Below, piece after piece: positions 2,219 through 55,248 of a stretch of DNA of 64,000 bases (position 1 is the stretch's first letter; each line of letters opens with the position of its first letter). The position numbers and the translations under genes were made by a program. The DNA lies in the NCBI GenBank assembly GCA_016929065.1, contig JAFGJO010000054.1:62001-126000 (forward strand), written 5' to 3'. The DNA comes from Spirochaetales bacterium (GTDB lineage: Bacteria; Spirochaetota; Spirochaetia; SZUA-6; RPPD01). Below the pieces are notes generated by a model, which was not told where the DNA came from, did not search any database, and saw only the letters and a program-made list of their open reading frames with translations.

Positions 2219-3733
2219 TTAGTGTACAATACCCAGAATGAATTCTTTATCTTCCCGCCATACACGGAAACTGACTTCGTCCTGGCTCCTGTCATTGAGT
2301 GCTTTGTAGAAATCAAGCACATTCCCGACAACCTTGTTGTTTACCTTCATGATGATATCACCGGCTTTCAATCCGGCACTCTCGGCGCTGGTTCCCGCAG
2401 TAACACCGCTGACAAACATTCCCGCAATTGTGTGCGGCGCTTTCAGCCGTTTTCTGATGTCATCGGTCAGCCGTGCTGCAGTGAATCCAGGCCAGACATT
2501 TTTGTTGGAACGAACCTTTTCTTCACTCTCCCGGGCGACCAGCGTCACCCTTCTGGTGATTTCCTTCTTTTCCCGTATGAGCACAAACTCCACTGCCCTG
2601 TTCGGCGGCAGATTCCCGACTATCTGCGTCAGGTGCGTTGCATTTTTAACTGCTTTGCCGTCTACCTTGACAATATAATCACCGGGCAGAATTCCGTCCT
2701 TCTCTGCGGGTGAGCCCTTGAACAATGAAATAACAAGTGCTCCTGGTTTGTCCTTTATACCCAGGTCATCTGCTGCTCCGGGATAGGCTTCGGCAGAGGG
2801 GTCATCGATTCCCACGCCAAGCCATCCGTATTCCACACTTCCCTTGGTCAGAAAGTCATTCATCACTTTCTTGACATTATTAATGGGAATGGCAAACCCC
2901 ACACCTGCACTTGCGCCGCTCTGGGAGGCAATCCATGTATTGATGCCAATCACCTCGCCGCGCACATTCAGTAATGCGCCGCCGGAATTACCGGGATTTA
3001 TGTCGGCATCAGTCTGGATGTACTGGTTGAAATTGGCTATACCTGATCCGGGCAATGCCGACCGGCCGACCGCACTGATCACACCCACTGTCAAAGTTGA
3101 TTCAAAACCAAAGGGATTGCCGATGGCAATAGCCCAGTCTCCCACTTCCGTGTTGTCAGAATCCCCGAGTTTGGCAAGCGGTACATCCTGACTGGTCTCG
3201 AATGAAATAAGTGCAAGGTCTGTACGTTCATCCTTTGCAACAATCTTGCCGGGATAATTTCTTCCATCGTTTAACAACACTGATATTTCGCTTGCCTTGC
3301 CAACCACATGATTGTTGGTAATAACAAATACCTTGTTACCGTCACGTTTCACGATAACACCAGATCCCAGTCCGGGACGTCTGTATTCAAAATCTTCATC
3401 CTGGTCGTTCCGCTCGCCCGGGGGTGAAAAAAAGTATTCCCAGGGAGTTGCGCCCTGTGAATTACCTTTGACCACTTCCACAACATTCAATTCAACTACA
3501 ACCGGCAGGGCGACATTCGCCACATTCCGAAATGAATACTGAATGTTTTCAAGTGCCTGATAACCCTTCTCCAGAGTATCACTGTCCTGTGCAAACGCGT
3601 TTGGAAACCGGTTATTGCCCGACACGCCCCAGATAAGGAGCGTGGAAACAGTGAATCCAAGAATCACCGAAACCAGGGCAATATTGAAAATCAGGAATTT
3701 TTGTGAAGTAAAAATACTTTTCTTTTTTTCCAT
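2219..3733 (-). CDS. htrA: HtrA/DegP-family periplasmic serine protease
   Basis: Protein of 504 residues expected to act in the periplasm as a heat-shock-type protease/chaperone. The start ATG at 3733 was chosen because AGGAGGA lies just upstream and a hydrophobic signal anchor follows at residues 12-36; the frame is open further upstream but has no such features. The trypsin-like domain carries the triad His142 (ITNNHVVG), Asp172 (DERTDLALI) and Ser250 (NPGNSGGALLN). Two PDZ domains follow (about 305-395 and 415-500). The gene sits between two two-component systems; a link to envelope-stress control is plausible but is inference. Confidence 0.96.
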   Translation of the reverse strand: MEKKKSIFTSQKFLIFNIALVSVILGFTVSTLLIWGVSGNNRFPNAFAQDSDTLEKGYQALENIQYSFRNVANVALPVVVELNVVEVVKGNSQGATPWEYFFSPPGERNDQDEDFEYRRPGLGSGVIVKRDGNKVFVITNNHVVGKASEISVLLNDGRNYPGKIVAKDERTDLALISFETSQDVPLAKLGDSDNTEVGDWAIAIGNPFGFESTLTVGVISAVGRSALPGSGIANFNQYIQTDADINPGNSGGALLNVRGEVIGINTWIASQSGASAGVGFAIPINNVKKVMNDFLTKGSVEYGWLGVGIDDPSAEAYPGAADDLGIKDKPGALVISLFKGSPAEKDGILPGDYIVKVDGKAVKNATHLTQIVGNLPPNRAVEFVLIREKKEITRRVTLVARESEEKVRSNKNVWPGFTAARLTDDIRKRLKAPHTIAGMFVSGVTAGTSAESAGLKAGDIIMKVNNKVVGNVLDFYKALNDRSQDEVSFRVWREDKEFILGIVH

Positions 3734-54747: not shown

Positions 54748-54820
54748 AGCCTCCGACCGGAATTGAACCGGTGACCCCCTCCTTACCATGGAGGTGCTCT
54801 GCCGACTGAGCTACAGAGGC
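54748..54820 (-). tRNA. tRNA-Thr (anticodon GGT)
   Basis: Cloverleaf of 73 bases: acceptor GCCTCTG/CGGAGGC (one G-T pair), D-arm GCTC...GAGC, anticodon stem CCTCC/GGAGG around ATGGTAA (anticodon GGT), T-arm CCGGTTCAATTCCGG. CCA is not encoded. It has its own consensus promoter, about 50 bases upstream. Confidence 0.95.
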
Positions 54821-54873: not shown

Positions 54874-54902
54874 ATAATAATCAAAAGCTTTTCATATGTC
54901 AA
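54874..54902 (-). promoter_or_regulatory. Sigma70 promoter of tRNA-Thr
   Basis: On the minus strand TTGACA (54897-54902), 17 bp, TATTAT (54874-54879): eleven of twelve consensus positions. It lies just below the terminator of the histone gene. Confidence 0.8.
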
Positions 54903-54910
54903 TATAAAAG

Positions 54911-54951
54911 AAAAGAACCTGTCCCATCAGTGTACAGGGAGAGGCTCTTTT
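54911..54951 (-). terminator. Intrinsic terminator of the histone-like gene
   Basis: A 15-bp stem with one mismatch (54911-54925 with 54937-54951) is followed on the minus strand by a T-rich run. It lies 20 bases after the stop codon of the 62-codon gene, which is therefore a single-gene unit. Confidence 0.82.
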
Positions 54952-54971
54952 CATATTGAATGCAGGAAGTC

Positions 54972-55160
54972 TTATGAAAAATCCTTGTCCATGACTGTTT
55001 TTCTGTTTGACGCTTTTGCGTTTGCAATGGCTCCGTCACAAAGTTTTTTTATTCTCACCGACAGCTCGTTTGCGACATTCCCGGCTGTGTTCATCCCTGA
55101 TGATTTAATATACGCTTTTACTTTTGACATGACGGCCAATACTTCCTGTTTTTCGTCCAT
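54972..55160 (-). CDS. Bacterial histone (single histone fold)
   Basis: Protein of 62 residues with the layout of one histone fold: helix 1 (about 4-20, LAVMSKVKAYIKS), a long helix 2 (about 26-51, NVANELSVRIKKLCDGAIANAKASN), then loop 2 NRKTV and a very short helix 3 (MDKDFS). The Arg53/Thr55 pair and Asp60 match the RxT and Arg-Asp clamp of archaeal histones (RKTVxxxD). Length and the truncated helix 3 are like the Bdellovibrio single-fold histone. GGAG lies upstream of the ATG at 55160 and a terminator follows. DNA binding is inferred from the family pattern. Confidence 0.85.
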   Translation of the reverse strand: MDEKQEVLAVMSKVKAYIKSSGMNTAGNVANELSVRIKKLCDGAIANAKASNRKTVMDKDFS

Positions 55161-55200
55161 TGTACGCTCCTTAATGTAATTTCCCTTTACTCTACTATAC

Positions 55201-55248
55201 TTTGCAAAGTGTCACCAGCACTAATTTCAGTTTTTGCAAAATGTCAAC
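55201..55248. promoter_or_regulatory. Direct repeats in the divergent histone/activator region
   Basis: TTTGCAAAGTGTCACC (55201-55216) and TTTGCAAAATGTCAAC (55233-55248) agree at 14 of 16 positions and start 32 bp apart, about three helical turns. The first copy includes a perfect palindrome ACTTTGCAAAGT. They sit between two divergently transcribed genes and could be operator sites. Confidence 0.5.

Follow-up and report, generated by a model that had tools for sequence, protein, structure and literature searches.

A 62-residue histone of the 'bacterial dimer' type encoded in the genome of a Spirochaetales bacterium

To our knowledge, histones were thought to be nearly absent from bacteria until recently, and HBb and HLp are the only bacterial histones for which we know of structural detail. 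The binding mode of the reference protein, HBb (Bd0055) of Bdellovibrio bacteriovorus, is itself debated. HBb has been described as bending DNA by single dimers, on the evidence of tethered-particle data and simulations, and touches DNA through N22, R57, S9, T53, T8, S24, K10, K12, K52 and K16 (Hu et al., PMC11317129); Bd0055 has also been described as sheathing straight DNA and not bending it (Hocher et al., PMC10627809). HLp of Leptospira perolatii forms a face-to-face (FtF) tetramer that requires R49 and N53 (PMC12701072). The 'bacterial dimer' α3 histones are defined by the lack of R48 and N52, by an RKT...D motif and by three lysines in α1, and have previously been reported from Spirochaetia (Schwab et al., PMC11390915).

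The window analyzed here, a stretch of 64,000 nucleotides from a Spirochaetales bacterium (Spirochaetota; genome of 3.49 Mb, 96% complete), contains a small gene that had been annotated as a histone (Table 1). The initial annotation gave its coordinates, 54972–55160, exactly and left the strand unstated; the gene lies on the minus strand, where it encodes MDEKQEVLAVMSKVKAYIKSSGMNTAGNVANELSVRIKKLCDGAIANAKASNRKTVMDKDFS, and the plus-strand reading of the interval has many stops. When the single sequence was searched with phmmer against all PDB chains, HBb (8cmp, E = 2.1e-8), Bd0055 (8fvx, E = 2.9e-8) and HLp (9qt0, E = 5.8e-8) were matched; a fourth, weak match was to the small protein 9f2c (0.022), and there were no further matches. 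The best matches were therefore solved histones and not an unrelated helical family, the outcome that had been named beforehand as counting against the annotation. A profile built from 37 relatives gave E = 2.4e-23 to HBb versus 2.4e-15 to HLp and reached archaeal histones, including HmvA and HMf. Identity is 27/58 to HBb versus 23/58 to HLp. Scans of the single sequence against Pfam, NCBIfam and PHROGs returned nothing above cut-off, but PF00808 was matched by 36 of the 37 family members (best E = 8.7e-6), so the suggested search against histone-fold models succeeded for the relatives and not for the lone sequence. Nine residues are invariant in the 37 sequences (S12, K13, K15, A44, A48, R53, K54, T55 and D60). 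Relative to a 73%-identical relative, substitutions at codon positions 1, 2 and 3 number 13, 7 and 31, a pattern that indicates purifying selection on the gene. The pseudodimeric DUF1931 type, which has two folds in a chain of ~140 residues, is ruled out by a single-fold product of 62 residues, and no DUF1931 (PF09123) paralogue was matched in the host genome.

Table 1. Features of the histone locus, with the ribosomal protein L17 gene of the same window
Feature	Coordinates	Strand	Basis or remark
Histone gene, 62 aa, single fold, HBb ('bacterial dimer') type	54972–55160	minus	phmmer, profile, tree, residue map
Helix α1, residues 3–20, with S12-K13-x-K15-x3-K19 DNA-contact row	55101–55154	minus	AlphaFold; equivalents of HBb S9, K10, K12, K16
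Helix α2, residues 28–50, dimerization helix by homology	55011–55079	minus	AlphaFold; HBb structure paper
Loop 2 RKT (53–55), Arg-Asp clamp R53/D60, stub α3 (56–61)	54978–55004	minus	Invariance in 37 relatives; HBb clamp R51/D58
Ribosome-binding site region, AAGGAGCGTACA before ATG	55161–55175	minus	Sequence; SD at the same place in relatives
Terminator-like hairpin and U-rich tail	54901–54952	minus	RNA fold versus shuffles
Two direct repeats GKTGACAYTTTGCAAA, 32 bp apart	55201–55248	minus	Possible operator; upstream of the histone gene
Ribosomal protein L17, Lys/Ala/Glu-rich C-terminal tail of about 95 residues	25996–26652	minus	

AlphaFold monomer models place helices at residues 3–20 and 27/28–50 and a stub at 56–59/61 (mean pLDDT 70–73); confidence is moderate (pLDDT 73, pTM 0.40). 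The α3 histones are recognized by an α3 of 3–4 residues and a shortened α2, and the models predict a stub spanning 56–59 or 56–61 and an α2 of 23–24 residues. The structure prediction proposed with the initial annotation thus recovered the topology of helix, longer helix and stub, but only at moderate confidence, and neither Foldseek nor VIA-align found a match for the monomer models. We attribute these empty searches to the limits of modelling, as a 62-residue monomer, a protein that normally folds as an intertwined dimer, and do not count them against the fold; assignment of the histone fold is accordingly based on homology with solved structures rather than on the model. Together, phmmer, the profile, the residue map and AlphaFold bear out the annotation of a single-fold bacterial histone whose helix 3 is truncated like that of the Bdellovibrio protein, and the hallmarks it had listed (two helices, an RKTV loop, a conserved Asp and a stub helix 3) are all present.

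Comparison of individual residues places the protein with the dimers. Seven of the ten HBb contacts with DNA are identical (S9, K10, K12, K16, N22, K52 and T53), an eighth, R57, is conservatively replaced by K, and two are altered (T8 to M, S24 to A). The HBb clamp R51/D58 corresponds to R53/D60. The FtF residues R49 and N53 of HLp (R48 and N52 in the definition of the dimer group) are N47 and S51, and of the FtF contacts R49, N53 and R55 the clamp Arg alone is retained. The RKT...D motif of loop 2 is present as R53, K54 and T55 with D60, and the α1 lysines 11, 13 and 17 of the group correspond, with equal spacing, to K13, K15 and K19. A 56-sequence tree separates the FtF members, recognized by their residues, from all others at 100/100, leaving the 62-residue histone and HBb opposite HLp; the sequence closest to the 62-residue histone belongs to Spirochaetes bacterium ADurb.Bin133 (72%). 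On this split and the presence of every feature of the group, the protein belongs, as judged from its sequence, to the published 'bacterial dimer' α3 histones.

Sequence signals around the gene argue that it is transcribed by itself. AAGGAG lies at normal spacing a short distance 5′ of the ATG, which agrees with the good ribosome-binding site annotated earlier. Downstream, a hairpin (54952–54910) is followed by a U-rich tract; the region 54890–54975 folds at −25.8 kcal/mol (z = −4.48), and none of 200 shuffles folded as well. A simple consensus terminator scan did not list this hairpin, probably because its loop is long. The next gene downstream on the same strand is a tRNA-Thr (54748–54820), preceded, past the hairpin, by its own σ70-like promoter (TTGACA-17-TATTAT, 11/12); the upstream neighbour, 261 bp away, is a divergent gene for a GAF/σ54 activator with a Fis-type HTH. 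The hairpin, the separate tRNA promoter and the divergent neighbour thus mark the histone gene as free-standing, and its annotation as a transcription unit of its own is a well-supported prediction. The further claim that this is a real gene and not a spurious frame holds on the histone matches, conservation in relatives, purifying selection, the ribosome-binding site and the terminator-like hairpin. The codon adaptation index is 0.785, like that of the ribosomal genes of the window, versus 0.69–0.75 for six of its non-ribosomal ORFs and 0.66 for random synonymous versions of the gene, which hints at good expression, although the gene is short. The only Rfam element near the gene is the tRNA. 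The two GKTGACAYTTTGCAAA repeats (14/16 identical; 1/200 shuffles as good) are spaced by about three helical turns and are a possible operator; the genome has no other copy of the exact motif, and in seven relatives the TTGCAA core is missing ahead of the histone gene.

The initial annotation had coupled the histone with the tail of ribosomal protein L17 as a hint of unusual nucleoid organization. It is matched by solved L17 chains from other bacteria, 160–199 residues long and with extended C-termini, so the tail is ordinary and not evidence of an unusual nucleoid, and this part of the annotation was dropped.

Members of the family were detected in 20 of the 61 related genomes searched and at 19 loci from other genomes; across the phylum, 48 of 393 Spirochaetota genomes have one match each. 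Among 20 of the phylum-wide matches that were examined, the tetramer-contact Arg and Asn occur together in eight and not in the rest; wherever the sequence was read among the 48 genomes, the histone was of either the dimer or the FtF type, never both. Close dimer histones are present in Planctomycetota, Latescibacterota, Nitrospirota and Eisenbacteria. The statement that bacterial histones occur in only a few lineages has to be relaxed for this group, which is less rare and had already been described for Spirochaetia (PMC11390915). No second histone was found in the host genome, no match to the histone was found on plasmids, and beyond very near relatives no gene neighbourhood is conserved. 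Besides one complete HU/IHF protein, the host has a longer ORF with a second HU-like domain, and all 39 good-quality related genomes encode HU; the histone would therefore supplement HU here and not replace it. The sole PF00210 match in the host resembles, by eye, ferritin and not Dps. In Leptospira, both HU and Dps are reported to be absent (PMC12701072).

Both of the closest genomes, which belong to the host's family and are 93% and 78% complete, have HU and lack the histone, by loss or transfer. The nearest histone comes from another class of the phylum. Monophyly of the same-order histones could not be rejected (p-AU = 0.146), and 60 residues offer little resolution; we therefore make no claim of recent horizontal transfer. 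At a deltaproteobacterial locus (2060–2239), a stop interrupts the histone frame, reflecting a pseudogene or an assembly error. Two IMG/VR virus contigs of roughly 44 kb each encode (at 2995–3183 in each) a tail-less HBb-type histone with RKTVMDKD, with ThyX, an AAA ATPase and MgtC as neighbours; the one large-terminase family searched, PF03237, had no match in either. The published 'phage histones' known to us carry a C-terminal domain and lack the RKTVMDKD motif, so these would be a different kind of phage-borne histone, provided that the contigs are phage.

By sequence and by analogy with HBb, we consider it likely that this α3 histone of the HBb group works as a backbone-binding homodimer. 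Two 62-residue chains would pair through antiparallel α2 helices. The l1–l2 loops would hold the phosphate backbone through N24 and T25 of one chain and K54, T55 and K59 of the other, and the starts of the α1 helices (S12, K13, K15 and K19) would also hold it, at neighbouring minor grooves. The dimer would then, as HBb does, bend DNA without sequence preference and would compact it, acting as a nucleoid-associated protein beside HU. A nucleohistone filament that sheathes straight DNA and does not bend it, which is how Hocher et al. interpreted Bd0055, is unlikely in our estimate. The Bd0055–DNA crystal of this same family does show a filament (PMC10627809), but the tethered-particle data and simulations for HBb favour bending (PMC11317129); sequence cannot decide between the two, and bending is ranked before sheathing because the single-molecule data back it.

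Occurrence of FtF histones in the same phylum, a loop 1 as long as that of HLp (one residue below HBb) and a Phe at the last helix position, again as in HLp, might suggest a DNA-wrapping FtF tetramer like the Leptospira protein. This is very unlikely, given that N and S replace the tetramer-contact R49 and N53 and that the protein groups with the dimers at 100/100. The histone fold could also have been kept for another job, as a local regulator or protein–protein adaptor, with global packaging left to HU, which is present and able to package; the missing gene in the two closest genomes would fit. The DNA-contact lysines and RKT nevertheless vary little or not at all among 37 relatives, and no conserved gene partner was found, making such a role quite unlikely. 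The chance of a spurious ORF or an unrelated small helical protein is negligible: the single sequence has no Pfam match and the model no Foldseek match, but sequence matches to three solved histones, wide conservation and purifying selection refute it.

It is possible, though somewhat doubtful, that each histone-bearing lineage of Spirochaetota has one histone, in some an HBb-type dimer, for which DNA bending is expected, and in others an FtF tetramer, for which wrapping is expected; no genome in our sample has the two together. HU is kept in the dimer lineages checked and is reported absent in Leptospira. If the pattern is true, the phylum would be a natural experiment on alternative types of bacterial chromatin. 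The gene itself adds one member and no new principle to a group already known in the same bacterial class. A clean HBb-type histone in an HU-bearing spirochaete nonetheless helps to show a widespread but patchy chromatin component and, taken with FtF histones from other spirochaetes, makes bending and wrapping comparable within one phylum.

Among the described systems, archaeal nucleosomal histones (HMfB) share the RKT loop and the clamp. The profile matches them weakly (E = 0.007 to HMfB/HMfA; 2e-6 to 4e-4 for others), and compared with HMfB, α3 is truncated and α2 is shorter (about 23 residues). The bacterial FtF histone HLp (9qt0) has the α3 fold, an identical SKVKAYIKS in α1, the Arg-Asp clamp and the terminal Phe in common with the 62-residue protein, which lacks the tetramer-interface residues R49, S52, N53 and T61 and falls in a separate clade (100/100). 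Set beside the 'bacterial dimer' α3 histones (PMC11390915), it is an additional member with no systematic difference seen. Relative to HBb/Bd0055 (8cmp, 8fvx), it is 47% identical, has a loop 1 one residue shorter, comes from a host of another phylum and carries M, A and S for T8, S24 and D49; the two share their length, the truncated α3, the SKxKxxxxK row in α1, the RKTVM loop, the Arg-Asp clamp and the absence of the FtF tetramer residues.
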